64,000 nt of DNA, taken from Sphingomonas panacis (GTDB lineage Bacteria > Pseudomonadota > Alphaproteobacteria > Sphingomonadales > Sphingomonadaceae). The stretch is from assembly GCF_001717955.1 (NCBI RefSeq), contig NZ_CP014168.1, positions 4,247,501 to 4,311,500 of the forward strand, in the 5' to 3' direction. The translations under genes and the position numbers were made by a program. The notes under the pieces are model-generated. The model saw nothing but the letters and a program-made list of their open reading frames with translations. It was not told where the DNA came from and ran no database searches. Positions 34,018 to 55,254 of the stretch are shown here, one piece after another. The number at the start of each line of letters is the position of its first letter. The stretch's first letter is position 1.

Positions 34018-34036
34018 GCCAGAGCTGCGGCGGAAT

Positions 34037-34515: not shown

Positions 34516-34555
34516 AAAAGGCCCGGGACCGCGGCGCATCGCCACGGCCCCGGGG
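34516..34555 (-). terminator. Strong Rho-independent terminator after the ParB-like gene
   Basis: A 15-bp stem (34522-34536 with 34540-34554, two G-U pairs in the minus-strand RNA) and 3-nt loop, followed by cc and tttt on the minus strand. It is 14 nt past the parB stop. Confidence 0.8.
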
Positions 34556-34568
34556 ACGCTGTCGCCGA

Positions 34569-37541: not shown

Positions 37542-37655
37542 GGGAATGCCCCAGAATAGGTTGCCCATGAAGACACATCGACGCGAGGAGCGCCCAAGAG
37601 CGGAGACGGGCAAGCATTGGATGGGCGACCCGCTGATCGCCACACCAAACTCGGC

Positions 37656-38743: not shown

Positions 38744-39292
38744 ATGTTTCAGGCGCAGCAATGCGAAGACGCCGGCGCGCCAGCCGCCGCGATCTATGAG
38801 GAACAGCAGTTCGTCGCCTTGTATCGAGAGGAGGCGCCCAAACTGCGCTCCTTCCTCCGAAGGCGTATTTGGCTCGAAGACGACCGCGATGACATGGTGC
38901 AGGAGGCCTTCACCAGGCTGGCAGCTTCACAATCGGCAAGCGCCTGGAGCAATCCCGGCGCCTATCTGCACGGAATCGTTCGGCACCTTCTCGCGGATCG
39001 TGTGCGAGCCTGGGCGAAAAGCCAATCTCTCGACCCGGTTTCCTGCCCGGTCCCTCAGGAGGTTGCCGGGCCAGACGAAGCTGCGGAGCTGAACCAGATG
39101 CGGGAGCGCTATCGTGTCGCAATCGATGGTCTCCCGCCGCGGACAAAAGAGGTGTATTTGCTACATAGGGTGGAAGAACTCGGCTATAGGCAGATAGCGG
39201 AGCAGCTGAGCATCAGTATTAGAACTGTGGAGTGGCATGTGGCGGAGGCCATTGTGCGGATCGGCAAGACCATCGGAAACCCCAATGGCTGA
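38744..39292 (+). CDS. ECF (FecI-type) RNA polymerase sigma factor
   Basis: A 182-residue sigma factor. Region 2 is FVALYREEAPKLRSFLRRRIWLEDDRDDMVQEAFTRL (~22-60) and region 4 is LPPRTKEVYLLHRVEELGYRQIAEQLSISIRTVEWHVAEAI (~133-173), the FecI group signature. The anti-sigma FecR gene overlaps its end by 8 nt. Together with the downstream TonB receptor this is a cell-surface signalling system, in which import of a ligand (here probably the lasso peptide) frees sigma to transcribe the receptor genes. No own promoter is clear upstream. Confidence 0.9.
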   Translation: MFQAQQCEDAGAPAAAIYEEQQFVALYREEAPKLRSFLRRRIWLEDDRDDMVQEAFTRLAASQSASAWSNPGAYLHGIVRHLLADRVRAWAKSQSLDPVSCPVPQEVAGPDEAAELNQMRERYRVAIDGLPPRTKEVYLLHRVEELGYRQIAEQLSISIRTVEWHVAEAIVRIGKTIGNPNG

Positions 39293-40349
39293 CAACAAAC
39301 AGCCGGAAGGTATGCCTCGCATGGATCAGCTGACGCGCGAAGGGGCGCTATGGTTCGCCCGAATGCGCGGCCCTGATGCCGAGAGCTATCGCCCCGAGTT
39401 CGAACGCTGGCTCACGCTCGGCGCTTCACACCGCGATGCGTACGACCGGGCGGGCGAAATCTTTGCGCTTGGGCGGTTTCTGGCCGCACAGGGAAATGAG
39501 GGCGCGAGCGAGGCCAACGACAATGAGCCCGTCCGACCAAAATGGAGATGGACCGGATTAGCGGCGAGCATTCTCATTGCCGTCGGTGTTGGAAGTTGGT
39601 TCCTCGGCGGCGAGATGCGGAGCCCCGCATATCGGCCCGTCCAGGTGGCTCAATCGGAAGGCGCCGCCACCTCGGAGCGGCAAATCTACGACACGGTGGT
39701 CGGTGGTCGGCGCAACATTCGCCTAGCTGACGGATCGGTTGTCGATCTCGACGAAGGGAGTGAGCTGGCGACGGACTTCACGAACGCCAGACGCGAGCTG
39801 AACCTCAAGCGAGGTCGCGCGCGATTCGAGGTCGCGCATGAAGGACGTCCGTTCGTGGTGTTTGCCGGAGGGGGAAGCGTCACCGCACGCGGTACGGTCT
39901 TCGATGTCATTCTTGGCGGCAACAAGCGCGTCACCGTAAGATTGCTGCGAGGGGTGGTTGACGTCGAGAGGCCGCAAGGCCCGAAAGACGGTCGAGACAA
40001 TGCCGCAGTCGCGCGATTGGAACCCGGCGAAGTCCTGAGTTTCGCAGCGGTAGCGCCAACGATCCTTCCAGTCAGCTTGGGAAAACCCGGGATCGAGCCA
40101 GCGGCGCTCAACCCCGGACAACCGGTCATCCGGGAGTATGAGCGAACCCCATTGTCCGCTGTCGTTGCCGAGGCCAACAGGGATTCCGCGACTTCTATTC
40201 GGCTCGCAGATCCCAGCATCGGCACGATGAGGGTCAGCGGACGGTTCCGCGTCGACAATGCCGATCAGGTTGCCGATCGCTTGGCGGTGCTGTTCGACCT
40301 CGATGTCGAACGGACCAAATCGGATGAAATCACCCTCCACAAAAAATAG
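39285..40349 (+). CDS. FecR-type transmembrane anti-sigma factor/sensor
   Basis: A 354-residue protein starting MADNKQPEGM. The N-terminal cytoplasmic DUF4880 domain (LTREGALWFARMRGPD, WLTLGASHRDAYDRA) binds sigma. One membrane segment follows (~90-107, GLAASILIAVGVGSWFLGG), then a periplasmic FecR domain (TVVGGRRNIRLADGSVVDLDEGSEL). The C-terminal STN-like domain contacts the receptor's signalling domain. The start lies 8 nt inside the sigma gene. It couples the TonB receptor at 40448 to the sigma factor. Confidence 0.9.
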   Translation: MADNKQPEGMPRMDQLTREGALWFARMRGPDAESYRPEFERWLTLGASHRDAYDRAGEIFALGRFLAAQGNEGASEANDNEPVRPKWRWTGLAASILIAVGVGSWFLGGEMRSPAYRPVQVAQSEGAATSERQIYDTVVGGRRNIRLADGSVVDLDEGSELATDFTNARRELNLKRGRARFEVAHEGRPFVVFAGGGSVTARGTVFDVILGGNKRVTVRLLRGVVDVERPQGPKDGRDNAAVARLEPGEVLSFAAVAPTILPVSLGKPGIEPAALNPGQPVIREYERTPLSAVVAEANRDSATSIRLADPSIGTMRVSGRFRVDNADQVADRLAVLFDLDVERTKSDEITLHKK

Positions 40350-40447
40350 CCGGAGATTCTTCTACTCCCTACCCCGTAGATTGCTGTTTTGTTGCGATGC
40401 CCCCTGAAAGTCCCGCCAGATTGTCGGGAATTTCCAAGGGGGCGAGA

Positions 40448-43045
40448 ATGGTTCGGATGGGGTCTCGGTTTCGTAGTGTGCTCCTGACTGCTGTGGCGAT
40501 CGGAACCTTGGCACCGACCGCCACAGCATTTGCGCAAGCGCAGCGCCGCGTCGAATACCAGATTGATGCCGGGGACTTGGGTGACGCCCTCAAGGCCGTG
40601 AGCCGCCAATCCGGCAAGGAAATCATTTTCACCTCCGAGGCAATACTGGGACGGACGGCGCCCGCGCTTCACGGAGCCTATAATGCAGATGAGGCCGTCC
40701 GGGCGTTGCTGCGCGGCTCCAATCTCGTCGCGCAGTTCCGCAAGGATGTCATAATCATTCGGGGGCGATCCGAGCCGTCGGGGGATCTAGCCGATCGCTC
40801 GGCGGTACCGACTGATATCGTGGTGACGGGATCACGCATCCGCGGGGGCGAGCCGGTTTCGCCGGTCGTGGTCGCCACGCGGAGCCAGATCGAAAAGCAG
40901 GGCATGAGCGATCTGGGTACATTCGCACGCAGCTTGGTTCAAAACTATTCAGGCGGTCAAAATCCAAGCATCCCAGGCGGCGGACAGGGGACTTCCGAAA
41001 ACGTCAGCTCATCCTCGACTTTGAATTTCCGAGGGATAGGACCTGATGCAACGCTCACCCTCTTCAATGGCCATCGCGTGGCTTATGATGCGATGAGTCA
41101 AGGCGTAGACATTTCCGCGATCCCTCTCGCGGCCTTGGATCGCGTGGAAATCGTCACGGACGGCTCGTCTGCTCTCTATGGTTCAGACGCAGTAGGCGGG
41201 GTGGCCAATGTCATATTCCGCAAAGATTATGATGGCGCAACCGTATCCGCACGGCTCGGCGGCTCGACAGATGGCGGCGACATTGAGCAACAATATAACA
41301 TCGTGACCGGTAAGCGATGGTCCGGCGGCGGCCTCATGGTCGCTTACGATTTCCGACACGTAACCCCCATTACGGCCAGACAACGCTCGTACACGCAAAG
41401 CAACGATCCGTCAGAAACGCTACAAAGCGGTGAACGGCAGCACAGCCTGGTCGGCGTCGGGCATCAAAGGATTACGGAGCAACTATCATTCGAGTTCGAC
41501 GGACAGTTCAACGACCGATCCAGCCGGCTCTGCGTCAATTACACCGAGACCGACGGCTGCCATGGAACAGGCGCCGACATACACATCCATACGCGTTCCT
41601 GGACAGCTTCGCCGAGCTTGAAGCTTGCCCTCCCGAACAAATGGGATGTCAGGCTTGGCTCCGTCGTTGGCGAGAGCCGAGCTGAGCAACTCGCGGACGT
41701 CGCGCTGGGGGGATCGCCGTATCTGGCGCAAAGGGGCATCTACACCAATCGCGTGCAATCCATAGAGGCAAGCGCGGAGGGCCCGCTCTTCAGCTTGCCC
41801 GGAGGCAGCGCCCGTCTTGCTTTGGGAGGCGGCGTCCGAAAATCAAAGTTCATCCTCTATATTGCGTCGCTGGAGAACGGAAACGCTGTCCCCGTGCAGC
41901 ATTTGGTGAACGACAGAACCACCGGCTACGGTTACGGCGAGATATCTCTTCCGGTCATATCGCAGAGGAACAATGTACCTTTTGTAAGTCGTTTGAGTTT
42001 CACGGCGGCGCTACGCTATGAGAACGTAGGACATGTCGGTGAGGTTGCTACACCCAAATTCGGCGTGATCTATGCTCCAATCCGCGACATCGCATTTAAG
42101 TTTAGTTGGGGTAAGTCTTTCAAAGCGCCTACGCAATATCAGTCCAGCCGCCCCAGGAGCGGCTATTCTCAGATCGGCGAGACAGCCTATTTTCCTCCCA
42201 GCCCCGCGCCGGGCACCGTGCTCTACGTGTCCGGAGGCAATCCCGATCTGAAGCCCGAGCGCGCAACAAGCTGGACGGCCACGGTATCTCTGACCCCTTC
42301 AATCGCCGACAAACTGCGAATTGATGCAAGCTATTTCCGAATTGACTATCGGTCGCGCGCCGTGTCACCGATCCCACAAAACTCGCTGGCATTCGATCCG
42401 ATCTACAGCGCCTATGTAACGCAGAATCCCAGCAGAGAGCAGGTCATATCTGCGCTTGCCGGAATAACCACACTCTTCGATCAAGGCGGTGGTGATCCGA
42501 GGACCGCGAACGTCGTCGCGATCGTCACCAATTATTTGCAAAATGCAGCTATTCAAAAGATCGATGGCGTCGATCTCACGATGGATTATAGCTTGCCGGC
42601 CGGGCCGCGGGACCGCGTCAATTTGCACGCTTCAGCGAGCTATCTCGAGAGCGAGCAGCAGCTAAGCGCCACTCAACCGATCGTACAACTCGCGGGAATC
42701 TTGTATCGGCCCCCTCACTGGCGGGGGTCCACCTCGATCGAGTGGCAGCACTCCAGTCTGTCAGTGACCGGGGTCCTGTCCTACATTGGCGGCTCGCTCG
42801 ACAATCGAGTGCCCCCTCATGTGCGGGTCGGCTCCTATAAATCGCTTGATCTGATCGCTCAATATGAGACTGGCGCCACTTTAGGGCCGTTCTCGAATAT
42901 AAGCATCTCAGTTTCGGCGTTGAACATATTTAATGAAAAGCCGGCGTTCATCCGCACCACGAGCGAGGGTGGGTACCATTACGATGCTAGCAACTATCCG
43001 ATTACAGGCAGATTCCTTAGCCTCACGATTGCCAAGAGCTTCTAA
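40448..43045 (+). CDS. FecA-type TonB-dependent receptor with STN signalling domain (lasso peptide uptake)
   Basis: An 865-residue outer-membrane receptor. ATG 40448 has AAGGGGG upstream; the longer reading from 40397 is rejected. It has a signal peptide ~1-29 (ends TATAFA), an STN domain ~38-107 (YQIDAGDLGDALKAVSRQSG), a plug ~115-235 (DIVVTGSRIRGGEPV, GSSALYGSDAVGGVANVIF) and a 22-strand barrel ending with YDASNYPITGRFLSLTIAKSF, which has the C-terminal Phe. The STN domain signals to FecR. The location between FecR and the lasso isopeptidase makes re-uptake of the lasso peptide the likely role; iron-siderophore uptake is the alternative. Confidence 0.92.
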   Translation: MVRMGSRFRSVLLTAVAIGTLAPTATAFAQAQRRVEYQIDAGDLGDALKAVSRQSGKEIIFTSEAILGRTAPALHGAYNADEAVRALLRGSNLVAQFRKDVIIIRGRSEPSGDLADRSAVPTDIVVTGSRIRGGEPVSPVVVATRSQIEKQGMSDLGTFARSLVQNYSGGQNPSIPGGGQGTSENVSSSSTLNFRGIGPDATLTLFNGHRVAYDAMSQGVDISAIPLAALDRVEIVTDGSSALYGSDAVGGVANVIFRKDYDGATVSARLGGSTDGGDIEQQYNIVTGKRWSGGGLMVAYDFRHVTPITARQRSYTQSNDPSETLQSGERQHSLVGVGHQRITEQLSFEFDGQFNDRSSRLCVNYTETDGCHGTGADIHIHTRSWTASPSLKLALPNKWDVRLGSVVGESRAEQLADVALGGSPYLAQRGIYTNRVQSIEASAEGPLFSLPGGSARLALGGGVRKSKFILYIASLENGNAVPVQHLVNDRTTGYGYGEISLPVISQRNNVPFVSRLSFTAALRYENVGHVGEVATPKFGVIYAPIRDIAFKFSWGKSFKAPTQYQSSRPRSGYSQIGETAYFPPSPAPGTVLYVSGGNPDLKPERATSWTATVSLTPSIADKLRIDASYFRIDYRSRAVSPIPQNSLAFDPIYSAYVTQNPSREQVISALAGITTLFDQGGGDPRTANVVAIVTNYLQNAAIQKIDGVDLTMDYSLPAGPRDRVNLHASASYLESEQQLSATQPIVQLAGILYRPPHWRGSTSIEWQHSSLSVTGVLSYIGGSLDNRVPPHVRVGSYKSLDLIAQYETGATLGPFSNISISVSALNIFNEKPAFIRTTSEGGYHYDASNYPITGRFLSLTIAKSF

Positions 43046-45081
43046 TGCGACTTTTCCGTGTGTTGGACGCCGCGTCGCTAGGCGGCTTGCGCCTCGCGAT
43101 CTACAGCGGCTTATTCTGGAGCAACGTCGCGCCGAGCTCAACGATTGTGCCGACCCAGTCGAAAGTTGGCGTAACTGCTGACGATCTCGTCCGCCTATCG
43201 GATCTTGGCCCCTCCTCTCCCGCTCCGGGCGAGCATGTTATAGGCCTGTCCCCCGATAAGCGATTTGCAGCGGTACAGGTGAGGACAGCAGATCCTTCAA
43301 TCAACCGATACCGAATTCGTATCGACGTTATAGACCTCAGCTCTCGCGATGCCCCGAGGACAATAGACGAAGGCGGTGATGTGGCGCTGCAATATGTTAG
43401 TGGGATTGGGGGAAGAACAGTAAGCACGGGGTACGCGGCCGCAACCCCACTCATCTGGTCGCCGGATGGATCTTGGGTCTATTTCCTCAAAAGGTTCGGA
43501 ACGACCGCACAGGTATGGCGCGCCGCGTTAGGCGGCGGTCGTAGTGTGGCCGTCACTCACGACGCAGAGGGGGTGGACGATTTTATCATTTCCAAATATG
43601 GCGACCAGCTGACCTACACATCACGCCGATTGGACGCCGATCTCCAAGCCAGTCTTCGAGCGGAGTATTTGAGGGGGTTCAAATACGACACACGCTTTGT
43701 CCCGCTCTTCGATGACAGGCCGCAGCAGTCAGTCACGAAGCCGACCACGAGAGTGATTGACCTCCGAACCGATCTCGCTCGGGACGCAACAATAATTGAA
43801 GCTGCGTCTTTCGACAGGCAAGTCCAGATCGTCCGCAAGGGGTTCGCAGTTACATCCCGAACGGGTGAGACCGCCCTTATATCTGAATCCGATCACGGCA
43901 CTAGAAGGGTTGCTGTCAGGCTGGCGAACGGCCTGGAGCAAATTTGCAGCTCATTGGAATGCTCGGGTCCAACGGCCGTCTGGTGGACCAAGGACGGAAA
44001 TCGCGTGCGGTTCATTCGGCGGGAGGGTTGGGGCAACGACGAGACAGCCATTTATGAGTGGCAACCGGGCGCCGCACATCCAAAGCGCCTATATGTTACA
44101 CAAGATTTGCTTATCGACTGTCAGCCGGTGGACGATCGGCTGGTTTGCGCCCGTGAGCGATCGGCGGACCCACGGCATATCATTGTTCTGGATCCCAGGA
44201 GCGGCAAAGCCAGGACTATCTATGATCCAAATGAGGAATTTCGCCGGCGATCCCTGGGCAAAATCGAGCGTCTGCACTGGCGCAACGAATTTGGAACCGA
44301 AACTTTCGGCGATCTCGTATATCCCGTTGGATATGTGCGCGGGCATGCCTATCCATTAGTGGTTGTCCAGTACATCTCGCGTGGCTTTCTCCGAGGAGGC
44401 GTTGGCGATGAGTTTCCCATTCAGGCTTTCGCGAACAGAGGCTACGCGGTCCTAAGTGTTCAACGCCCAGATAGAAACCTTCTCCCAAGCGCGTCCATCA
44501 CGGAAAAGGCACAGGACGATCGATCAAAAGCGAAGCTTGCCGACCGAAGAGACGTACTGTCATCGATTGAAACTGGCGTTCAGAGCCTTATCGACCGAGG
44601 CATCGCGGATCCTCGTCAGATCGGCATCACCGGTCTGAGCGATGGATCGTCCACAGTCCAATTCGCACTCGTTAACAGCTCGATGTTTAAGGCCGCCTCA
44701 GTCAGTGGGTGCTGCTGGGACCCGTATCAGGATGCGATCGTCGGACCGGGGGCTGCCGAGGCATACCACCAGAGCGGTTGGCCAGAACTGATCAACTACA
44801 ACTCCGTCTTCTGGTCGCACATATCCCTTGTAGAAAATGCGCGCAGAATTGCGGCTCCTATATTGATACAGCAATCCGACGATGAGTTCAGGGGCGCAAT
44901 TGCTAGCTATACGGCTCTCAAACAGGCCAAGCGCGCGGTCGCGCTCTTCGTTTTTCCGAACGAACATCACGTAAAATGGCAACCGGCTCACAAGCTGGCA
45001 GCCTACGAACGAAATCTTCGTTGGTTCGACTTTTGGCTGAGAGGAATTGGCGACGGACGCGAGTGGCAGTCAGACAATTAG
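43045..45081 (+). CDS. Lasso peptide isopeptidase (AtxE-type, prolyl-oligopeptidase family)
   Basis: A 678-residue serine hydrolase; its ATG shares one base with the receptor stop. The N-terminal ~400 residues form a beta-propeller-like domain (IWSPDGSWVYFLK). The C-terminal alpha/beta hydrolase has the nucleophile in GLSDGSS (Ser532), the acid near DDEFRG (Asp612/613), and the His in NEHH (641/642). Enzymes of this type, known from astexin clusters, cut the Gly1-Asp isopeptide bond and linearise imported lasso peptides. The size, S9-family motifs and place directly after the TonB receptor all match. It is convergent with the cyclase gene, 25 nt apart. Confidence 0.88.
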   Translation: MRLFRVLDAASLGGLRLAIYSGLFWSNVAPSSTIVPTQSKVGVTADDLVRLSDLGPSSPAPGEHVIGLSPDKRFAAVQVRTADPSINRYRIRIDVIDLSSRDAPRTIDEGGDVALQYVSGIGGRTVSTGYAAATPLIWSPDGSWVYFLKRFGTTAQVWRAALGGGRSVAVTHDAEGVDDFIISKYGDQLTYTSRRLDADLQASLRAEYLRGFKYDTRFVPLFDDRPQQSVTKPTTRVIDLRTDLARDATIIEAASFDRQVQIVRKGFAVTSRTGETALISESDHGTRRVAVRLANGLEQICSSLECSGPTAVWWTKDGNRVRFIRREGWGNDETAIYEWQPGAAHPKRLYVTQDLLIDCQPVDDRLVCARERSADPRHIIVLDPRSGKARTIYDPNEEFRRRSLGKIERLHWRNEFGTETFGDLVYPVGYVRGHAYPLVVVQYISRGFLRGGVGDEFPIQAFANRGYAVLSVQRPDRNLLPSASITEKAQDDRSKAKLADRRDVLSSIETGVQSLIDRGIADPRQIGITGLSDGSSTVQFALVNSSMFKAASVSGCCWDPYQDAIVGPGAAEAYHQSGWPELINYNSVFWSHISLVENARRIAAPILIQQSDDEFRGAIASYTALKQAKRAVALFVFPNEHHVKWQPAHKLAAYERNLRWFDFWLRGIGDGREWQSDN

Positions 45082-45106: not shown

Positions 45107-46927
45107 TCAGGGGAGCGTTTCACGAATTCCATCGTTTCCGATGCCAGGTATGTCACGTGACATTGAGCCTGGACCTTGGCGCATTCCGCGCCAATGACGT
45201 ATCCACGCCTCCGCGTCGACCAACATCAACAACCGTGCAATATCACCCGCTCTTGACTTGACGCTCGGACCAAAGGCCGCTTCGATTGCACGTCTGTCAA
45301 CAATCCTCTCTTCTGCGAGAAAGCCATTCATCAGTCTATCTTTCATCTCTTCTCGAAAGTTAGAAAAGATTTGGAAGCTGAATCCTTGCGGACCACCTTT
45401 GGTCCTCCGATTTACTACAACGTCAGGGAGAGCCGAGCGGAAGGCCTTCCGGGCCACGGATCGGTCAAAGCCTTGCTCGCATTGCAACCAAGCGGGGATC
45501 TGAAGGCAAGTCTCCAACAAAGGCTGAGAGGTCAGAGGATGAAATATCGGGATACCATCACGTTCGCGATAGGCATCTAGCGAGTGATACATGCGGATGA
45601 GCATCGCGATGTGGGCGGACTTTGCAGGCAGCTTGTATCTTCCTGCTTGTTCAAGCCAGGGATGGGAAATCGGATTTGAAGCCAATGCCTCTATGACTGG
45701 ATCAGTTAAAAACTCGAGCTCGGGCTTCCAAACGTATCCGTTGGGGTATCCATGACAAGCCCGGACACCGTGGAAGATGACGTTGGCGCCGTTCGCGCCC
45801 GTCATTAACGATATATCGCTAATGGTCTTCAGCAGCCCGAGCGACCATCCTTTCGATAGGAAACGATCGGCCAACGGGCGCGCCGAATGGCTCATATAGA
45901 AAACGTTGTCCCCGCCGTTTCCCGTGAAGATTGCTTGGGCATCGATCTGCTTCGCGGCGCGTAGGATCGCCCTGTCATATGCTCGAAGGTCCGGGCGTCC
46001 GAATGGCTTCGCGAGATGGCGGACTGACGAAGAGTCTAGATCAACGTCTTCGAGGGCATAACTCTCTTCGAAAAGGGTGCAGCCCAGATGTGACGTGAGG
46101 GCGCGCGAATGCGAACGCTCATCCCCAAGCGGATCATCGGTAGCCAGCGTCACGCAGGCGTAGTCATTACCACATGATCGAAGACAGGCGGCTACGATCG
46201 AAGAGTCCAGACCCCCGGAAACGCCTAGGAGGGCCCGCCCCGCGACTTTGGACCATCCGCTTACGCAGAGCTGCGTCGATCGGCGGAGCTTCTCAGCATG
46301 CTCTTCCGCGGAGCTATCCAACTGCTCGACGACGAACTCCCAGGGATTCCAACGTGTGTCCGTCGAAATCTCGGTCTCAAGAACCCGCAAAGCGGTTCCC
46401 GGGAGAATCTGCCCTACTCCTTCGAGTGCCGTCCGCTCCTCAGGAAAGCCGCCAAGTGCGAGCGCTCTGGCCAATTGCGCGCGGTCGAGTTCAGGTTCCC
46501 TACCGGTTGGCGCGAAAAGCATGGAAGGGTCGGTGGCTAGTACGAGGTCGTCACGTGATACGGAGTAATAGCAGGGTAGCGCACCGGACGGATCCCGGAG
46601 CACCAGCAATTGCCGGCGCGTTCGAATGACGGCAACGTAGCGCCCCCAGAAGCGATCAACTAAATGTTGACCCTGCGTCCTCTCGATCGCCTCGGCGTCA
46701 TTAGCCTCGAGTCGAAAAACGGGCTCAGATGGCCCATAACGGTGAAAAAGTGTCCCAACGATGAATCCCGCACCGCCTGGAAGAACGATAACAGCCGTCG
46801 GGTCATTTACCGCCAACAATGAATGCTCCGCGATGCGGTACCATCGTAGCGGCGAAGGAGGTCCCCCGCCGAAGGATCGAGCAGGTTGCGCATCACGGCT
46901 CAATCTCGCCAAAAAAGCTATGGTCAC
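45107..46927 (-). CDS. Lasso cyclase (asparagine-synthetase-like, C protein)
   Basis: A 606-residue asparagine synthetase B homologue. The N-terminal half is glutaminase-like but lacks the catalytic Cys2 (starts MTIAFLARL), as usual for lasso cyclases. The ATP-pyrophosphatase loop is LLGVSGGLDSSIVAACL. Motifs downstream are KPFGRPDLRAYDRAIL, TGNGGDNVFY and RRTKGGPQGFSF. It adenylates the Asp side chain of the core and joins it to the free N-terminus. It overlaps the protease gene stop by 4 nt. The gene order A-B-C differs from the A-C-B order common in other isopeptidase-containing clusters. Confidence 0.92.
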   Translation of the reverse strand: MTIAFLARLSRDAQPARSFGGGPPSPLRWYRIAEHSLLAVNDPTAVIVLPGGAGFIVGTLFHRYGPSEPVFRLEANDAEAIERTQGQHLVDRFWGRYVAVIRTRRQLLVLRDPSGALPCYYSVSRDDLVLATDPSMLFAPTGREPELDRAQLARALALGGFPEERTALEGVGQILPGTALRVLETEISTDTRWNPWEFVVEQLDSSAEEHAEKLRRSTQLCVSGWSKVAGRALLGVSGGLDSSIVAACLRSCGNDYACVTLATDDPLGDERSHSRALTSHLGCTLFEESYALEDVDLDSSSVRHLAKPFGRPDLRAYDRAILRAAKQIDAQAIFTGNGGDNVFYMSHSARPLADRFLSKGWSLGLLKTISDISLMTGANGANVIFHGVRACHGYPNGYVWKPELEFLTDPVIEALASNPISHPWLEQAGRYKLPAKSAHIAMLIRMYHSLDAYRERDGIPIFHPLTSQPLLETCLQIPAWLQCEQGFDRSVARKAFRSALPDVVVNRRTKGGPQGFSFQIFSNFREEMKDRLMNGFLAEERIVDRRAIEAAFGPSVKSRAGDIARLLMLVDAEAWIRHWRGMRQGPGSMSRDIPGIGNDGIRETLP

Positions 46928-47598
46928 CGCAGCACCAGAATTGGTGAGTAGTTATTGATTTGCCCGAACGTGTCGTTCAAAACGGTGCCTTCATATTGCA
47001 CCCAGGCATGCGCGGAGAACGGTTCTGACCTTACCCCGATAACTAGATTTGCAGTCACGCCGCGCGCACGAAGAACCGAAAACATTGCTAGAGACCGCGT
47101 CAAACAGCGATTTGACCGGCCAAGGATCAGAGCTGCCCTTTCGAATGCGGACACCCACAGGTCGACCTCGGTTTTCCTCTCATGCTCATCGCGACCTATG
47201 ACCCGTCTGGAAATTGCGGAGCGTGCAAACACCGAATGCAACGGGAACAGCCGTATCCTCAGTGAAGTACGCAACTCAGAATATACGGCGACCAGAAGTG
47301 GCCACAACCTGTGGGGAACCTCATTGCGGCTATAGGCATCGCCAGCTGGAGCCTCAATTTCCAAAACCTTGAAGCTCAGGTCGGAATCCGCCGCCTCCAA
47401 CAGATACCCTGCGTCGATCAGTGATGACAATGCCGCCTCAGCCCCGGCGACTGTCTCACCATTCCGGGCCACAAGTTGCCGGAACGTCACAGTACTGGTC
47501 GAGGGCAAGGCAAAATACCGGTTTCTGGACAGGTCAAGAAAGATAACGTTCCGGCCTGCGATGCAGTGGTAGAGTCCCTCTTTTAATCGATAGCGCAT
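46924..47598 (-). CDS. Lasso leader protease with fused RRE (B protein)
   Basis: A 224-residue protein. Residues 1-75 form a PqqD-like RiPP recognition element (YRLKEGLYHCIAGRNVIFLDLSRNRYFAL) that binds the precursor leader. Residues ~95-224 are a transglutaminase-like cysteine protease with Cys165 (NRCLTRSLA), His197 (SAHAWVQ) and Asp209 (VLNDTFG) as the catalytic triad. The proteobacterial B1-B2 fusion is the normal form. It cleaves after the leader's -1 residue, freeing Gly1 for cyclisation. It lies 51 nt behind the precursor and overlaps the cyclase start by 4 nt. Confidence 0.92.
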   Translation of the reverse strand: MRYRLKEGLYHCIAGRNVIFLDLSRNRYFALPSTSTVTFRQLVARNGETVAGAEAALSSLIDAGYLLEAADSDLSFKVLEIEAPAGDAYSRNEVPHRLWPLLVAVYSELRTSLRIRLFPLHSVFARSAISRRVIGRDEHERKTEVDLWVSAFERAALILGRSNRCLTRSLAMFSVLRARGVTANLVIGVRSEPFSAHAWVQYEGTVLNDTFGQINNYSPILVLR

Positions 47599-47649: not shown

Positions 47650-47790
47650 TCAGTCGTCTTCCAGGCCGATCCCATTGGGCTGCCGCTGGAGGAAGCTGTC
47701 GTCGCCACTGTTCGCGCCGCCCTTCGTCTCGGCGACCACCGAGCCAAGGTCGATCAGCTTGTCGACGTTGCGATCCTCATTACGTTCCAT
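47650..47790 (-). CDS. Lasso peptide precursor (A protein)
   Basis: A 46-residue precursor. ATG 47790 has GAGGAG upstream; the longer in-frame reading is rejected. The leader (residues 1-23) ends KLIDLGSVVAETK, with the LxDLG RRE-binding motif and the conserved Thr at -2. The core (residues 24-46, 23 aa) starts GGANSGDDSFLQ and ends GIGLEDD. Gly1 plus Asp7 or Asp8 would give a 7- or 8-residue macrolactam ring. The layout GG-x4-(acid)2 is similar to xanthomonins (7-residue ring), as recalled from the literature. Bulky plug candidates are F10, L11, Q12, R13 and Q14. I do not recognise this core as a described peptide. Confidence 0.9.
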   Translation of the reverse strand: MERNEDRNVDKLIDLGSVVAETKGGANSGDDSFLQRQPNGIGLEDD

Positions 47791-47974: not shown

Positions 47975-48607
47975 CTAGATTTGCCGTTCACTGCGGATAA
48001 CCTGGAGCTGACGATCGATTTTCCTCACGTGGTAGGCTTCGACCCGCCGTCGCGTTGCTTTACGGAAACTCTCGACTTCCATGCTGGTGAATATTGCCAG
48101 CTCCTTCGCCGAGTAGATCGGCGCCGTCGCCTCTGCGATCCGGCTGTAGTGAAGACGATCATTAAGCCTTCGGACGTCCAAAGTTGCTTCGCGGTTTCCC
48201 GTCGCCTCGGCCATTGCTAAAAAGATCTCATTCGTCCGGATTGCGATGCCAACTGCTGATGTTTCCTGATCAAAGACCGCGTAGGGCTGCAGGGCCTGAC
48301 GAAGCGTAGATTCCTTGACCGTCGCTAGGACTGTAATCAACAACTGCATGTGCCAATAAAGAAGCTCGACGAGTTCTTTGGGAGCGAGAATTGGAACGAG
48401 AAATCCGCCATCCGCGTGATGGGTAAGAAGCCCCTCGCCCACCATAGTAAACGCAGCCTCTCGCACCGGTGTCTTGCTCGACCGATGCCGGGTCGCGAGT
48501 TCCTGAATATCAATCTTCTTCCCCGGCACGAAAAGACCGGCGAGGTAATCGGCCTTCAGCCCCCCGTAGACACGCTCATGAAGAGGAGGATCCATCGCCG
48601 ACATCAT
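47975..48607 (-). CDS. GntR-family (FadR/FCD-type) transcriptional regulator
   Basis: A 210-residue protein starting at 48607 with a 4-nt ATGA overlap with the XRE gene; longer readings are antisense extensions. The N-terminal winged helix is LHERVYGGLKADYLAGLFVPGKKIDIQELATRHRSSKTPVREAAFTMVGEGLL (~7-60). The C-terminal helical FCD ligand domain (~75-200) follows. It is transcribed in the same direction as the lasso biosynthesis genes, 184 nt upstream of the precursor, and is therefore a likely regulator of it. The ligand is unknown. Confidence 0.85.
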   Translation of the reverse strand: MMSAMDPPLHERVYGGLKADYLAGLFVPGKKIDIQELATRHRSSKTPVREAAFTMVGEGLLTHHADGGFLVPILAPKELVELLYWHMQLLITVLATVKESTLRQALQPYAVFDQETSAVGIAIRTNEIFLAMAEATGNREATLDVRRLNDRLHYSRIAEATAPIYSAKELAIFTSMEVESFRKATRRRVEAYHVRKIDRQLQVIRSERQI

Positions 48608-49023
48608 AGATTGGTGGCTTCTGAAACATTCGCAGTCGGCCACGCCGGCGTCAGGGCTTGCGTTAGATGATCGAGATTGCGTCGAGCAATCAGCTCGATA
48701 CACATCCGCTCGAGGTCGCTGAGATCGCCCATCGCCAGTTGGCGGGGAAAGCACATCTTCTGGCCAGCGAAGAGCAGAGGGATGAGGATATGACCCGTAG
48801 AGAGGCCCAGGCGGTAGGCGCAGGCGAGATGATCGTCCAACCGTGAACGAGGATTGCCGCCTTCGATCTCGCGAAGCCAGCGAACACCCATACCAAGCTC
48901 ACGCGCCAGATCGCGTTGCGTCAGGCGCCTCTTCTTCCGTGCCTCTTCAATTTGTCGCCCCGACTGCACTTTGACGTACAGAATTGGACTTTCGGCAACG
49001 GAAGTCGCTAAACAGTGCGACAT
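48604..49023 (-). CDS. XRE-type helix-turn-helix regulator
   Basis: A 139-residue protein starting MSHCLATSVAES, with AAGGAG 8 nt upstream. The XRE helix-turn-helix is at ~22-60: SGRQIEEARKKRRLTQRDLARELGMGVRWLREIEGGNP. The C-terminal ~60 residues (LFAGQKMCFPRQLAMGDLSDLERMCIELIARR) are unassigned. Its stop overlaps the GntR start by 4 nt, so the two regulators are made together ahead of the lasso operon. It is probably part of the production switch (inference). Confidence 0.8.
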   Translation of the reverse strand: MSHCLATSVAESPILYVKVQSGRQIEEARKKRRLTQRDLARELGMGVRWLREIEGGNPRSRLDDHLACAYRLGLSTGHILIPLLFAGQKMCFPRQLAMGDLSDLERMCIELIARRNLDHLTQALTPAWPTANVSEATNL

Positions 49024-49927: not shown

Positions 49928-50227
49928 ATGGACTTTCCATGCTCGTTGCCCACGCTTGCCGGAGCGCTCCTGCTCTGCGCGGGCGCCGTGCCGGCCAACG
50001 CTCAGAGCTATGATCCAGACGCTGAGGCTTACCCCTGCGCTCGCCACGCCCAGCTCGCGATCGTGCAGAACGATCTCGGCTTTTCAATCCGCGAGAAGGC
50101 GTCCTCGCCCACGGCTCCAGCCGCCGCGACCGCAATCAAGATCGGCAACTCGCTCACCCTCGACCGCCGACTTTTCGCACCCACCTCCCTCGTTCGCCCG
50201 GAGCCCGCCCATGTCACGCAACGCTAA
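49928..50227 (+). CDS. Small exported protein at the head of the tra operon
   Basis: A 99-residue protein starting MDFPCSLPTLAGALLLCAG, with GAGGAG 9 nt upstream; an ATG at 49919 sits too close to that site. It has a clear Sec signal peptide (~1-25, ending PANA), then a ~75-residue mature part of unknown family (SYDPDAEAYPCARHAQLAIVQ). Its end overlaps the DsbC-like gene by 17 nt. Periplasmic location and operon position suggest an accessory role in pilus or mating-pair assembly. Confidence 0.55.
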   Translation: MDFPCSLPTLAGALLLCAGAVPANAQSYDPDAEAYPCARHAQLAIVQNDLGFSIREKASSPTAPAAATAIKIGNSLTLDRRLFAPTSLVRPEPAHVTQR

Positions 50228-50975
50228 GCTGGTCGCGGCAGCGCTCCTCTTCGCAACGGCGCCGGCCTACGCCCAGGACAACAGCGGCGAGCCGCTCACG
50301 ATCGCAGCGGAGGAGGCTCAGCGCCAGTTACACCAGACCTTCACGAACTTGACGTTCGAGGACTTCGGTCCGGCGCCTGTCAAAGGCCCAATATATCAGG
50401 CAATCGCGGGCGGACGAGTCATCTATTACGCCCCCGAAAGCCAGCATCTCCTCTTTGCCGCGGTCTACGACAAGAACGGCGTCAATCTGACGGCGCTTGC
50501 CCAGGACGCGAGCGCGAGGAAACGCCTGGGCGCCGTCAATCCTGCCGAGGCGCTGGTGATTGGCCCTCCGGGCGCCCCAAAGGTAATCGAGTTCACCGAT
50601 CCCGATTGCCCTTATTGCCAGGCGCTCGAACGGTTCTGGCTGGCGAAGGAGGCAGAGGGCAAGCCGGTCCAGCGCCTCGTATATTTCGTGAGCGGCATTC
50701 ATCCGCAGGCAGCCGCCAAGGCTGAGCACATTCTCTGCTCTCCTGATCCGCAGGCGACGTTCAAGGCGATCTATGCCGGCGCACAGCCCGCATCGCTGCG
50801 CACATGTCGGGCGGGCGCCGAGAAGGTGGCGCGCGACGCGGAGACGGTCCGCAAGATGGGCGTGTCGGGCACGCCGACGCTCTTTGTGGATGGGAAGCTC
50901 GTGTCGGGCTTCCAGCAGGCCGAGCTCGAAGCCTTTATCGACGCGCAGAGCCGTAAGGCCAAGCCCAGCCCTTAA
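50211..50975 (+). CDS. DsbC-type thiol:disulfide interchange protein of the F-type T4SS
   Basis: A 254-residue periplasmic protein starting MSRNAKLVAAALLFATAPAYA (signal peptide, cut near residue 21). The dimerisation domain is followed by a thioredoxin fold with active site DPDCPYCQAL (CPYC) and the cis-Pro loop VSGTPTLFVDG. It isomerises or forms disulfides in the many-cysteine TraU and TraN proteins encoded downstream. Only the last part of a longer open frame is used; the ATG at 50211 starts the signal peptide. Confidence 0.88.
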   Translation: MSRNAKLVAAALLFATAPAYAQDNSGEPLTIAAEEAQRQLHQTFTNLTFEDFGPAPVKGPIYQAIAGGRVIYYAPESQHLLFAAVYDKNGVNLTALAQDASARKRLGAVNPAEALVIGPPGAPKVIEFTDPDCPYCQALERFWLAKEAEGKPVQRLVYFVSGIHPQAAAKAEHILCSPDPQATFKAIYAGAQPASLRTCRAGAEKVARDAETVRKMGVSGTPTLFVDGKLVSGFQQAELEAFIDAQSRKAKPSP

Positions 50976-51152
50976 GAGGCGTCCGAGACGATTTTTGGCG
51001 GACCGCGTGAGCGCTCTAACGCGCCGCCGGGACCGGAATGCCGGCGGGAGCGCGCCTCCAGGGGCCGTCCAGCGCGATCGCCGGCCGGACTCGACCACCG
51101 ATCGGTACCGGCAAGCATGATCCGGACGGCTCCGACGACAAGGAGACTGATT

Positions 51153-51470
51153 ATGTTGACTTCGCTTCGGGGAAGGACGTTCCGCACGATCGACGCGGCA
51201 GTCCTTTTCCTCCTGGCCGCGATCGCTGGCACGAGCGTCGCCTACGCCTTCCAGGCGCCGGCCGCTGGCGACCTTGGTTACGACATCTACGACATCGTCG
51301 TGAACCAGGGCGTCAAGGGACCGCTCGGCTTCGTGGGCGGCGTCGCCGCCTTCCTGTTCGGCGTTTCGCGGCTCTTCTCGAACATCATGATCGGCATCCC
51401 GACGATCGTGGCGGCGGTCTGCCTCATCAAGGCGGATTCGATTCTCCGGACCTTCGGCATGGTGATCTGA
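51153..51470 (+). CDS. traA: TraA-like F-type pilin
   Basis: A 105-residue prepilin. ATG 51153 has AAGGAG upstream, which rejects the ATG at 51117. A long signal sequence (~1-32, ending SVAYAFQA) is followed by a short mature protein with two hydrophobic helices (VKGPLGFVGGVAAFLFGVSRLF and MIGIPTIVAAVCLI), the F-pilin layout. The position before traL fits. It would be processed and assembled into the conjugative pilus. Two hairpins follow in the gap to traL. Confidence 0.8.
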   Translation: MLTSLRGRTFRTIDAAVLFLLAAIAGTSVAYAFQAPAAGDLGYDIYDIVVNQGVKGPLGFVGGVAAFLFGVSRLFSNIMIGIPTIVAAVCLIKADSILRTFGMVI

Positions 51471-51514
51471 GACCGGGACCGGGCGCGCCGGCTGGGTCGG
51501 CCGCCCTCACGAGA

Positions 51515-51559
51515 CGGAAGGCGATGGGCGCCTTCCGGACCCCACGTTCAACAACGTGG
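51515..51559 (+). repeat. Two tandem stem-loops between pilin gene and traL
   Basis: Stem 1 is cggaaggcg-atggg-cgccttccg (51515-51537, 9 bp). Stem 2 is ccacgtt-caac-aacgtgg (51542-51559, 7 bp). Neither is followed by a T run. They could protect the pilin mRNA from 3' decay and lower downstream expression. Confidence 0.6.
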
Positions 51560-51578
51560 TGAAGCAAGGGAGAAGGGC

Positions 51579-51845
51579 GTGGACGAACGTCTGCCGCAGT
51601 TCCTGCATAAGCCGACCCAGATCCTCTGGTTCGACAGCCAGGAGTTCATCGTCGTGATGTCCACGATCTTCGTCGCGGTCATCGTCGGCGGGATCATCGG
51701 CTGGCTGCTCATCGGCGCCCTTCTTCTCTTCATTCCCTGGAAGCGGACCAAGCCGCGTGGGTTCATCCCGCATCTGGCCTGGCGCTGGGGCCTCGCCCGC
51801 TTCCGCCACTATCCGGGTCCGACCCAGACCCGCTTCTTCGAGTAG
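51579..51845 (+). CDS. traL: TraL, F-type T4SS inner-membrane protein
   Basis: An 88-residue protein starting at GTG 51579, with AAGGGAGAAGGG upstream. The sequence LPQFLHKPTQILWFDSQEFIV is typical for the TraL N-terminus. Two membrane segments follow (~30-56: VMSTIFVAVIVGGIIGW, LLIGALLLFIPW) and a basic C-terminus. It is needed for pilus assembly and works with TraE at the inner membrane. It lies 5 nt before traE. Confidence 0.88.
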   Translation: MDERLPQFLHKPTQILWFDSQEFIVVMSTIFVAVIVGGIIGWLLIGALLLFIPWKRTKPRGFIPHLAWRWGLARFRHYPGPTQTRFFE

Positions 51846-51850
51846 GCGCG

Positions 51851-52486
51851 ATGGCAAACCCCTTCAGGCGCAAGCCCCAGGCCGACATGATCGGCGATAT
51901 GCGGCCGAGCTGGCACCTGCACCGCTACCTGCAGGGATCGGCCAATCTCTTCGAGGAGAATCGGCTGCTCAAGGTGGCGATCGCGGGCCTCTTCGGCATC
52001 ACCGCGGTACTCGGAACGGTCATCTACACCTCGCACCAGAATACGCGCACCGTGATCGTGCCGTTCGGCGCGGACGGCGACCTCTATGTGACGGGCAACA
52101 AGCCGTCTGAGACCTATCTGCGCGCGATCACCTTCAACATCGTCGGCCTTGCGGGCACCTATTCCGCCTACTCAGCCGATCGGCAGTTCCAGGAACTGCT
52201 GCGCATCGCGCACCCCAGCGCCTATAACGGGCTGCGCGACAGCCTGAACCGCCTGCTCGATGAGCTCGGCAACAATCCGACGCTCTCGATCGCGACTTAC
52301 ATCCGCGGAGATCAGCCCGTCACCTGGACGGGGAGCGAGATACTCGTTCCCGTCGAGAAGGTGCGCGTGATCGGCGGCGTCATCCGCAAATTCCGTGGCA
52401 ATCTGCGCATTCGCTACGCGCTCGAGAACGGCCGCTTCTGGCTGACCGCCCTCCAGGAGGAGAATTTCAGTGCCGATGTCCGGTAA
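51851..52486 (+). CDS. traE: TraE, F-type T4SS (VirB8-like) protein
   Basis: A 211-residue protein. The cytoplasmic N-terminus (RPSWHLHRYLQGSANLFEENRLLK) is followed by one membrane helix (VAIAGLFGITAVLGTVIYTS, ~38-57) and a periplasmic VirB8-like domain with AITFNIVGLAGTYSAYSADRQF. It scaffolds the T4SS at the inner membrane and helps pilus extension. It overlaps traK by 17 nt. Confidence 0.9.
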   Translation: MANPFRRKPQADMIGDMRPSWHLHRYLQGSANLFEENRLLKVAIAGLFGITAVLGTVIYTSHQNTRTVIVPFGADGDLYVTGNKPSETYLRAITFNIVGLAGTYSAYSADRQFQELLRIAHPSAYNGLRDSLNRLLDELGNNPTLSIATYIRGDQPVTWTGSEILVPVEKVRVIGGVIRKFRGNLRIRYALENGRFWLTALQEENFSADVR

Positions 52487-53264
52487 TCGGGCGAGGCTTG
52501 CCTGCCTCGCCGGGGCGCTCATCGCGTCCGTTCCCGCCGCTCCGCCCTCCTTGGCTCAGGCCATCACGGCGTTGCCCGACCAGACGAGCCGCATCCGGCT
52601 CTCCAACCGCGACGTCAATCACGTCGTCTGCGTCGGCGGTGACATCGAGGACGTCAAATTCTCGGCCGAGAAGGGCCTCGCGGTCGAACGCGGTGGCGCC
52701 GACGCCTGGATCAAGTTCCTCGTGCTCGAAACCGAGGATCCCAACGTTGCGGGCGGAGCCGGCAAGACGCGCACCTATGTGACGACGCCTTCGGAATTCT
52801 TCGTGTCGTGCAATGGCGCGATCTACCCGCTCTACGCCGAGCCCGCCGACATTCCGGCGCAGACCGTGACGCTGGCGCCCGGTGGCGCACAGCGCGCCCA
52901 CGCCAATGACGCTTTGCTCGGGCCGCTGGTCGAGGAAGAGCGGGCTGTCGGGATCGCGCTCGCGATCCTGCAGGATCGGGTACCCGCGTCCTTCTCCGAA
53001 GTGGCGCCCTCGCGCGATCGGCTTGTGCTTGCCGACCTCCCTACCGCGTCGCTGTCGGAACGGCGGCGTCTCGAAGTCGAGGGTGCCGGCCTCTCTGTCA
53101 GCGAATATCTCGTCCGGGCGAGCGTTGCCATCACGCTCGATGAGCGCGACTTCCTCGATAGCGCGCTCGGCGCCGACATCTTTGCCATCACGATCGATCG
53201 CCTCACACTGGGTCCGAACGAGACCGCCCGGCTGATCGTCGTCCGCCGGAGCGTGCAGTCATGA
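52470..53264 (+). CDS. traK: TraK, F-type T4SS secretin-like (VirB9-like) protein
   Basis: A 264-residue protein with signal peptide ~1-29 (ends PSLAQA). A second ATG 6 nt downstream is possible. The N-terminal periplasmic domain (ALPDQTSRIRLSNRDVNHVVC) and C-terminal secretin-like domain match TraK, which forms the outer-membrane core ring with TraV and TraB. It overlaps traB by 4 nt. Confidence 0.9.
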   Translation: MPMSGNRARLACLAGALIASVPAAPPSLAQAITALPDQTSRIRLSNRDVNHVVCVGGDIEDVKFSAEKGLAVERGGADAWIKFLVLETEDPNVAGGAGKTRTYVTTPSEFFVSCNGAIYPLYAEPADIPAQTVTLAPGGAQRAHANDALLGPLVEEERAVGIALAILQDRVPASFSEVAPSRDRLVLADLPTASLSERRRLEVEGAGLSVSEYLVRASVAITLDERDFLDSALGADIFAITIDRLTLGPNETARLIVVRRSVQS

Positions 53265-54565
53265 CGACACCAGAAGACAGCCCGCAAGTCTCTCCGACCG
53301 CAGCGCCGGGAGTCGGCGCGGACGATGCCACGATCGACACAACGGCCCGGCCCGCTTTGCTCGATATGCGCGCGCAATGGTCGAAGCTGACCTCGGATCA
53401 GAAGCTGCGCGCCAAGCAGCTGGGCGTGGTCTCCACGATCGCGCTGCTCGGCCTCGGCCTCTACACCGCCAGCTCGAGCGGAAAGAAGGAGGCGCCCAAG
53501 GCGCCCCAAGCCAGCAATCTCGACATGGGCGCGGGGCTTCGCGGTGACAGCCTCGAGGTGAAGCTGCGCGGGGATCTCCAGAAGATCCTCGACGGGCAGA
53601 CCCTGCTGGGGGACCGCGTCACCGCGATCGAGGAAGGCAAGGTCGTTCCCGGCGGCGGCGCTGGCTCCCACACGCCCGCCGCGGGCGACGGGGGTGATCT
53701 CCCGCCCGCGATCCCGGGCGAGGCGCCCGCCTATCCGCCGGCTCCGCGCGAGGCGAAGGGCGCGGCGGACGAAATTCCAGCGCCGCCGACCCCGCCTTCC
53801 GCGCCCCCGGCACCGCCTGCTCCGCCCACGGAGCGCCAGATCGGCGCGATCGGTGCCGCGACCGCAGCCCAGGTTGCGGAGGGAGGCGCGAGCAGCGGGG
53901 CTGCATCAAAAAAAGGGAAGCGGACGATCTATTTGCCGCCTGGTTTCATGAAGGCGCGGCTGCTGACCGGCATCGACGCGCTGGCGAGCCGGGACGCGAC
54001 CAGTAATCCCGAACCGATCATCGCCAGGGTCCAGGCACCCGCCGTGCTTCCCAACGAGGTCAAGGCCAATCTCGCCGGCTGCTTCGTCATCGGCAATGCG
54101 ACCGGAAGCCTCGCCAAGGAGCGGGTCGAGATCCAGCTGGTGTCGATTTCCTGCGTGGATTTCGAGAGCCATGCCGTGGTCGACCAGGCGATCAAGGGCT
54201 TCTTCGTCGATGCTGACGGCAAGAAGGGGCTTTCCGGCAAGGTCGTGACCCGGGCCGGGGCGACGCTTGCCCGCTCGTTCATCGCGGGCACGATCGCCGG
54301 CATCTCGCAGAGCGTGGAAGGATCGTTCGGGAGCCTTTCAACCTCGGCGCTCGGCAGCGTGCGCAGCCTCGATGCCGGCGACGCGGTCAAGACCGGCATT
54401 GCCGGCGGCCTCTCCAAATCGTCGGACAAGCTCACCGATTTCTACCTCGATCTCGCCCGCCAGGCCGGACCGGTCGTCGAAGTCGGCGCCGCCAAGGATG
54501 TCGTGGTCGTCATCCAGGAGGGCCTCGCCCTCGAGATCAAGCCGTCGGTCGGGAGCAAATTCTGA
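53261..54565 (+). CDS. traB: TraB, F-type T4SS (VirB10-like) protein
   Basis: A 434-residue protein. It has a cytoplasmic N-terminus, one membrane helix (~63-80, GVVSTIALLGLGLYTAS), a Pro/Ala-rich periplasmic spacer (~165-200, many PPAPP repeats) and a C-terminal VirB10-like barrel domain (IYLPPGFMKARLLTGIDA, CFVIGNATGSLAKERVEIQ). It spans both membranes and opens the outer-membrane channel. The stop shares a base with an ATG at 54565, but the traV start is further down. Confidence 0.92.
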   Translation: MTTPEDSPQVSPTAAPGVGADDATIDTTARPALLDMRAQWSKLTSDQKLRAKQLGVVSTIALLGLGLYTASSSGKKEAPKAPQASNLDMGAGLRGDSLEVKLRGDLQKILDGQTLLGDRVTAIEEGKVVPGGGAGSHTPAAGDGGDLPPAIPGEAPAYPPAPREAKGAADEIPAPPTPPSAPPAPPAPPTERQIGAIGAATAAQVAEGGASSGAASKKGKRTIYLPPGFMKARLLTGIDALASRDATSNPEPIIARVQAPAVLPNEVKANLAGCFVIGNATGSLAKERVEIQLVSISCVDFESHAVVDQAIKGFFVDADGKKGLSGKVVTRAGATLARSFIAGTIAGISQSVEGSFGSLSTSALGSVRSLDAGDAVKTGIAGGLSKSSDKLTDFYLDLARQAGPVVEVGAAKDVVVVIQEGLALEIKPSVGSKF

Positions 54566-54600
54566 TGCGCCCGACGCCCCGCCCCAAAGGAGGTCCCGCC

Positions 54601-55254
54601 ATGCAGCCGGTGTCCCGTCCGTCTCTCCACCGCTCGCTACTCTCGCTGGGCCTGCTTGCAGCACTCAGCGGCTGCGCGGCCGTAGGTTCGATGATGTCGC
54701 CCTATTCCGAAAAGTTCGACTGTAAGAATAGCGACCACGGCCAGTGCATTCATCCCGACCGGGCCTATGAGGACGCGGTTGCCGGCGTTGCGTCGAAGTC
54801 GGACCCCAGGGTCACCAATGATCGCGCCATGCTTCGTGACCAAGCCCCCGACAAGGAGAAGGCCAAGGGCAGATCCGGCAACAATGCCGCGAGCACCGCT
54901 TATGGCAGCTACCGCGACAGTGTCTATCAGGAGCTCAAGGGCCTAATTGAGGCGCCGGTGACGCCGATGCTGAAGCCGGCGCGCACGGTACGCACGCTGA
55001 TCCTGCCCTATGCCGATCGGCAGCGGCCCGATCGCCTCTACATGCCGCGCTACGTCTATTCGGTGATCGACAAGCCCGTCTGGGTGGTCGGCGGCGCGTT
55101 CGTCGCCGCGCCCGATCGCGCCTCGCAGGCCCCGATCCTCGGCCAAGTCCGTGACTCCACGGCACCCGACGGCGAGCCCCCGTCGGCGCCGGAGAGCGTA
55201 ACGGTTCCTGCTCCCCCGGCAATCATCCCGCCTGCCCCGGAGCAGAAGCCATGA
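54601..55254 (+). CDS. traV: TraV, outer-membrane lipoprotein of the F-type T4SS
   Basis: A 217-residue lipoprotein. ATG 54601 has the very strong site AAAGGAGG 6 nt upstream, preferred over the ATG at 54565. The signal sequence ends in lipobox LSGC. The mature part has CKNSDHGQC, the paired cysteines of TraV, and a Pro-rich C-terminus. It anchors the TraK/TraB ring to the outer membrane. The stop overlaps traC by 4 nt. Confidence 0.9.
   Translation: MQPVSRPSLHRSLLSLGLLAALSGCAAVGSMMSPYSEKFDCKNSDHGQCIHPDRAYEDAVAGVASKSDPRVTNDRAMLRDQAPDKEKAKGRSGNNAASTAYGSYRDSVYQELKGLIEAPVTPMLKPARTVRTLILPYADRQRPDRLYMPRYVYSVIDKPVWVVGGAFVAAPDRASQAPILGQVRDSTAPDGEPPSAPESVTVPAPPAIIPPAPEQKP

Follow-up and report, generated by a model that had tools for sequence, protein, structure and literature searches.

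Xanthomonins start with Gly-Gly and carry acids near positions 7 and 8, and xanthomonins I to III close a seven-residue ring on residue 7. Plasmid pCHQ1 of Sphingobium indicum UT26S encodes the core GMGSGSTDQNGQPKNLIGGISDD, which we take to be sphingonodin II. To our knowledge, the physiological role of sphingomonad lasso peptides whose genes lie with isopeptidase and TonB genes is unsettled. Sphingonodin II appears among the lasso peptides listed in a passage of PMC7549694, and benenodin-1 has a ring of eight residues according to a passage of PMC13352647. Sphingocin, from Sphingomonas BPH, is presented in passages of PMC11006600 with Asn7-Asp8, a core ending SDD, and an adjacent divergent isopeptidase and TonB receptor.

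The locus studied here lies in 64,000 nucleotides of the Sphingomonas panacis chromosome (NZ_CP014168.1, positions 4,247,501 to 4,311,500), a stretch referred to below as the window and numbered from its first letter. Very probably it holds a complete lasso system of the benenodin/sphingonodin type, one that an ICE-like conjugative element carries as a module on a sphingomonad chromosome. The sequence itself shows which genes are present, that the precursor belongs to the family, that Asp8 is conserved and that the module lies beside the tra operon. The module and its regulators comprise the following.

38744..39292 (+), fecI-like ECF sigma factor (PF08281, PF04542)
39237..40349 (+), fecR-like anti-sigma factor (PF04773, 62.6 bits)
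40397..43045 (+), TonB-dependent receptor with an STN domain (PF00593, PF07715, PF07660)
43045..45081 (+), lasE, lasso isopeptidase of the AtxE2 type, 678 aa (NF033523, 730 bits, cut-off 400)
45107..46927 (-), lasC, asparagine-synthetase-like macrolactam cyclase, 606 aa (PF00733, 83.3 bits; SGGLDSS loop)
46924..47598 (-), lasB, B2 leader peptidase, transglutaminase-like, 224 aa (NF033537, 78.2 bits, cut-off 33; PF13471)
47650..47790 (-), lasA, precursor of the lasso peptide, 46 aa and a stop codon (leader at 47722-47790 and core at 47653-47721)
47975..48601 (-), GntR regulator adjoining lasA (PF00392, 35.2 bits; first in-frame ATG near 48595)
48604..49023 (-), XRE-type regulator that separates the lasso module from the tra operon (PF13560)

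The lasA frame runs on the minus strand from an ATG at 47790, immediately preceded by GAGGAG, to a stop at 47650, and a 113-aa open reading frame at this place is the same frame prolonged upstream. Its translation gives a 23-residue leader, MERNEDRNVDKLIDLGSVVAETK, terminating in VVAETK, and a 23-residue core, GGANSGDDSFLQRQPNGIGLEDD, with Gly1, Asp7 and Asp8 in the core and Thr at leader position -2, just as the first-pass annotation had described. The precursor scores 42.7 bits against the NCBIfam benenodin family (NF033522, cut-off 33, E 3.7e-11) and 44.1 bits against the Pfam family Subterisin (PF24178, cut-off 27), and its leader/core junction, AETK/GG, has the T-x leader end and Gly at core position 1 found in the benenodin family. 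By these family models, 47650-47790 (-) is confirmed as a genuine precursor of the benenodin family, beyond chance. Searching the whole precursor against solved structures returned zero matches at E values up to 10. Cyclised, the core has a predicted monoisotopic mass of 2343.036 (linear core minus water).

With benenodin-1 and its family the locus shares the precursor family and the presence nearby of B, C, isopeptidase and TonB receptor genes; it differs in core sequence, in lying next to tra genes and in having Asp at both 7 and 8. The pCHQ1 locus has the same core length of 23 residues, Asp8, a DD end and the same slot, in which lasA, GntR and HTH genes are followed by dsbC, traL and traE, whereas its core is mostly unlike that of the window, its lasB match is 28% identical and it sits on a plasmid rather than a chromosomal element. 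Sphingocin likewise combines a benenodin-family precursor with Asp8, a DD end and no D gene, but its core is unlike that of the window, the peptide is a prediction, and conjugation genes go unmentioned in the available passages (PMC11006600). Sphingopyxin I (5jqf) belongs to the same precursor family, the core of one further locus (L064) being identical over residues 1-21 to chain 5jqf_A; it differs in having an acid at 9 and none at 8, so a nine-residue ring is expected there.

Directly downstream of lasA, and all on the minus strand, follow lasB and then lasC, the adjacent pairing of B2 peptidase (NF033537) and asparagine-synthetase-like C protein (PF00733) that characterizes the benenodin family. 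In lasB, the Cys and His columns do not vary among the 75 proteins aligned, and 66 of the 75 retain the Asp. Against two NCBIfam macrolactam-cyclase models lasC reaches 84 bits where the cut-off is 300 and 62 bits where it is 525, so its assignment rests on the Pfam match and on its neighbours. On the other strand, fecI, fecR, the TonB receptor and lasE converge on lasA-lasB-lasC. The isopeptidase aligns with AtxE2 (5txc) across residues 39-669 at E 3.9e-120, placing Ser532, Glu614 and His642 opposite Ser527, Glu610 and His638 of AtxE2, presumably the catalytic residues, although its substrate specificity may differ. As in AtxE2-type systems, the gene adjoins one for a TonB receptor. The window GntR has a match in 51 of 89 lasso loci; the XRE regulator has one in 23 of 27 tra-region loci, whether lasso genes are present or absent. 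Among the annotated genes at 37966-49023 no exporter was seen. Family models and Pfam thus uphold the complete A-B-C cluster named in the first-pass annotation, which does not mention the isopeptidase, the receptor, the FecI/FecR pair or the neighbouring conjugation operon.

What is generally known of AtxE2 and FecAIR systems lets us infer how the ring closes and the peptide is shaped, and how it is exported, taken up, sensed and linearised. With the help of Thr(-2), the B protein would cleave behind Lys(-1) and so remove the leader, and C would activate the Asp8 side chain and couple it to the Gly1 amine, giving an eight-residue ring with a 15-residue tail. The lasso would then be secreted, re-imported through the TonB receptor and sensed through FecR and FecI, and the isopeptidase would open the returned lasso.

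That the cluster might instead be decayed or silent, with no product, is improbable. Another element (G057) at the same slot (L115, 10467-12534) has lasA, lasB and lasC matched over 66%, about two-thirds of lasC being kept, with no match to the isopeptidase, receptor, fecR or fecI in the stretch covered; perhaps a decaying module, its incompleteness indicates that lasso clusters at the tra slot can decay. In the window, however, the reading frames are open, the Cys and His of lasB are present, residues 39-669 of the 678 in the isopeptidase are covered by the AtxE2 alignment, and lasA shows dN/dS of 0.06-0.19 inside an inner clade (L041, L039, L114).

A complete system of this kind could close its ring on either of two adjacent residues.

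47698..47700 (-), codon for Asp8, the predicted ring-closing residue
47701..47703 (-), codon for Asp7, predicted not to close the ring

The first-pass annotation held that the choice could not be read from the DNA and decided the topology. Relatives answer differently. Precursors from 89 loci, from the window and from ten proteins yielded 80 distinct cores, a tally that leaves aside 11 of the 89 loci, in which the leader pattern gave no precursor, and includes the protein P0009. An acid occupies position 8 in 68 of the 80 (58 Asp, 10 Glu); among the other 12, 11 have an acid at 9, and P0009 has none at 7 to 9. Position 8 or 9 is thus acidic in 79 of 80 cores, the window core among them by virtue of Asp8. 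An acid at 7 occurs in 16 cores, always alongside one at 8 or 9, and never alone (0/80). Because the family model that recovered many loci spans part of the core, this sample may favour typical ring positions; even so, an acid at 9 but not 8 was seen 11 times and position 7 alone never.

Closer relatives agree. In an alignment of the window with ten proteins from the protein search (11 rows), position 7 is Asp in eight rows, Gln in P0006, Asn in P0008 and absent in P0009. Each of the ten full-length rows has Asp at position 8; the Asp that P0009 aligns at column 8 is actually residue 3 of its short core. P0009 itself, an 18-residue core missing five ring-region residues, comes from a 664-base contig and may be an assembly artefact. 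Three sister clusters (L015, L018, L027) pair Gly7 with Asp8. Among 12 distinct plasmid cores, counted by eye and including one that also belongs to the 80-core tally, an acid stands at 8 in nine, at 9 without 8 in three and at 7 only in none; in the pCHQ1 core, Asp8 is the sole acid ahead of residue 22. Since full-length close relatives keep Asp8 while position 7 changes among Asp, Gln, Asn and Gly, the window lasso very likely has a Gly1-Asp8 ring and a 15-residue tail. As far as sequence can, the comparison thus addresses a ring question thought to need mutants, and it predicts an exact mass for the product.

The GG-x4-acid-acid layout of the core resembles that of xanthomonins, and the first-pass annotation had left room for a ring of their kind. 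Closure on Asp7, giving a seven-residue ring and a 16-residue tail, is chemically possible for this peptide in that Asp7 is present and 16 of the 80 cores bear an acid there, and a passage of PMC4675943 on Stenotrophomonas predicts a seven-residue ring "as in xanthomonins". The window precursor belongs to the benenodin family, however, and the xanthomonins come from a different host group. An acid conserved at 7 would mark the xanthomonin type, whereas close relatives with Gln7, Asn7 or Gly7 retain Asp8 and no tallied core depends on position 7; with no core relying on an acid at 7 alone, a xanthomonin-like ring is very unlikely, and we rejected it on this comparison. Less probable still is a mixed product in which C closes on Asp7 or Asp8 to give two ring sizes, for although the two residues are neighbours and Asp7 occurs in eight of 11 rows of the close alignment, position 7 varies among further close relatives and we know of no natural lasso peptide that mixes ring sizes.

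The predicted Gly1-Asp8 lasso of the window adds a new but ordinary peptide to an established family; what is new is this peptide and its linkage to tra genes, the class being known. The first-pass annotation called the peptide apparently undescribed, which stands insofar as a full-text search of the open-access papers available gave none containing any of six core strings. The claim needs qualifying in that the core recurs identically in Sphingobium estronivorans (L040) and that several close relatives among the ten from the protein search are already annotated as benenodin family lasso peptides. One-residue core variants occur in Sphingobium arseniciresistens (L039) and Novosphingobium SG919 (L041). 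L040 and L020 (G331) have identical precursor DNA, are probably one genome and were counted once.

Against this nearest independent genome (G331/L040), the core shows four synonymous and no replacement codon changes; the corresponding figures are six and one against L039 and nine and two against L042. Seven precursor pairs have the same B and are uninformative on divergence; we compared cores with their B proteins in pairs at B identity of about 50-75%. Seven pairs within the window clade have cores 91-100% identical, and the other 24 pairs have cores 30-86% identical; near 47% B identity, window-clade cores also drop to 52%. As the pairs are mutually related, these figures describe a pattern and do not amount to a test. 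For lasA, the synonymous distance to L041, L039 and L114 is 0.32-0.48, close to tra-gene values, against 0.94-4.1 for lasB. Core identity may therefore partly reflect recent exchange of the lasA stretch and not selection, two causes that 46 codons are too few to separate. Synonymous distances of lasE, lasC and lasB are saturated in several comparisons, so the age of the module and its rate are inseparable.

Seven loci (L036, L038, L052, L054, L060, L069, L085) have two different precursors beside a single B gene. The lasso-like L096 core of G052, GPNGQYYDNPCEVSLGRSTIRYVCP, has two tail cysteines and is perhaps a disulfide-bearing variant, its lasB and lasC matches being weak (23-25%). The S. 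panacis genome itself has two further benenodin-family clusters, L043 (C1 4098151-4098285, -) with core GMGAPFSDTGDGRQLQPGLTDD and L044 (C2 298461-298592, +) with core GNDGNDIDMAHQRLQGGLSDD; L043 adjoins a related ParB/Toprim gene and lies 42 kb from a second traC.

On both sides, the lasso module of the window is flanked by genes of a mobile element.

29663..37643 (-), mobile-element backbone: strawberry-notch-like helicase and Toprim/ParB protein (PF13872, PF13871, PF13362, PF17762)
50205..57749 (+), head of an F-type conjugation operon: dsbC, traL-like, traE, traK-like, traB, traV-like, traC (PF10411, PF05309, PF03743, PF11130)

The names traL, traK and traV follow the gene order annotated in pCHQ1. 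The lasso cluster has an unusual location at the head of this operon, of which dsbC, traE, traB, traC and traN are in the window and traF, traH and traG follow past its right edge (L118). Beyond the left edge (L117) are a TrwC relaxase, a TrwB-type coupling protein and a serine recombinase (L117:372-1937). A relaxase, a coupling protein and a type IV secretion system thus fall within one region and make it ICE-like; by gene content, the lasso cluster lies in an ICE-like element. Tyrosine integrases gave 25 rows genome-wide, none inside the window, the nearest being at C1 4187328 and 4402107, and a search for tRNA genes as possible attachment sites gave none in the window. GC at third codon positions is 0.58-0.68 across the genes at 37966-49586. 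Most tra genes on the right have values of 0.75-0.88, and most genes on the left, from about 24 to 37.6 kb, have 0.73-0.79, with two at 0.64 and 0.68.

Searching 397 genomes of the family with the window TraC gave 25 rows in 21 genomes, or 24 elements once the pieces of G296 were joined. Eight of the 24 have lasso genes directly upstream of traC, within about 10 kb: B and C matches occur in the window, G057, G164, G287, G331, G144 and G171, and G011 has a precursor alone, at a contig edge. The lasso contig of G331 terminates inside lasC, and its contig C35 terminates before the slot. Fifteen other elements show no lasso genes by tblastn with the window genes in the upstream stretch covered, which is short in some; among them G294 has a traC fragment only and G224 a broken tra region. 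In traC-positive genomes, eight of 23 lasso hits fall within 12 kb of traC against 0.14 expected by random placement, and even four would have a P of about 1e-5, though the hits are non-independent by shared descent. All four named loci recovered with the precursor alignment (L039-L042) have the lasA-tra junction, L040 and L042 ending at or inside the lasso genes. In the short stretches covered, the majority of lasso clusters in the genomes lack tra genes: dsbC matches occur in seven of the 89 lasso loci, most of which reach only 1.5-4 kb from the precursor.

The G294 region (L138, 12646-19096) is apparently what a deletion has left of an element of this family: its traC fragment lies directly against a ParB/Toprim gene, of which half is matched, and no lasso match was seen. 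In G324, G293, G224 and G200, lasso hits share a contig with traC and lie 20-55 kb beyond it, perhaps at a second position on related elements.

The physical linkage of lasso and tra genes extends to plasmids. Searches of plasmids with the cluster DNA and with the precursor (tblastn) gave no match, and the plasmids were reached instead by TraC and isopeptidase queries. TraC 80-90% identical to that of the window is found on nine plasmid records, of which eight were examined. On seven of the eight, including pCHQ1, matches to lasB, lasC and the isopeptidase occupy the tra slot; pDC02 of Rhizorhabdus wittichii has no lasso genes there. In CP117882 and CP117418 no more than 56% of the query is covered by the isopeptidase match, and the leader pattern recovered precursors from four of these plasmids (pCHQ1, pSA2, pHR1a, pBSY17_1). 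The seven lasso-bearing plasmids are non-independent, pSA2 and pHR1a coming from one species and CP117882 and CP117418 having similar lasB. Other results run against the linkage: isopeptidase-bearing plasmids number 18 in all, and of the 11 besides these seven, ten were examined, none of them with dsbC, traE or traC of this kind within about 14 kb on either side.

A single origin of the tra-linked modules was judged unlikely: the lasB tree needs seven label changes, and its well-supported branches force at least two. In one lasB tree, the tra-linked window, L015, L018, L020, L027, L039 and L041 form one group (SH-aLRT 96); in a larger tree the supported sets containing the window have three rows (99) and four rows (95), and the seven-row set is not among them. 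Both trees are weakly supported in large part and some rows are long. Because the tra-linked L068, L082, L140, L141 and L144 have, by path length, non-linked lasso clusters as their closest neighbours, the slot was probably filled more than once, by repeated capture.

Among the open-access matches listed, no title or abstract opening ties lasso clusters to sphingomonad transfer operons. Nearest in topic among them are papers on natural-product clusters on cyanobacterial conjugative plasmids (PMC8600333) and on lanthipeptides near genetic-exchange systems (PMC12715929); the genome paper on Sphingopyxis granuli TFA proposes ICEs, and its available passages do not mention lasso peptides (PMC4741004).

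By default we favour the reading in which the slot is a stable point of insertion and the lasso module is carried there as useful cargo. A bolder proposal, which we consider doubtful, is that benenodin-family modules are a recurrent accessory of sphingomonad transfer regions and that the lasso is an element-encoded signal. The peptide would be secreted, sensed via TonB, FecR and FecI, cleared by the isopeptidase and coupled to tra through the GntR and XRE regulators; if true, conjugation pheromones or donor-recognition cues would have an equivalent in lasso form. Repeated occurrence of the module at one F-type tra slot, on ICE-like elements and megaplasmids, makes a role in conjugation or element fitness testable, and the better conservation of the window-clade core relative to its B protein adds to that direction.

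A lasso module also adjoins a transfer region of another type: on plasmid Lpl of Novosphingobium PP1Y (L145), it has a luxR-luxI region on one side and a trb (MPF_T) operon on the other. Neighbouring luxR-luxI genes recur on ES2-1 p2 and in Sphingomonas paeninsulae, and the modules of L145, L147 and L148 adjoin luxR-luxI, phytanoyl-CoA dioxygenase and GntR genes.
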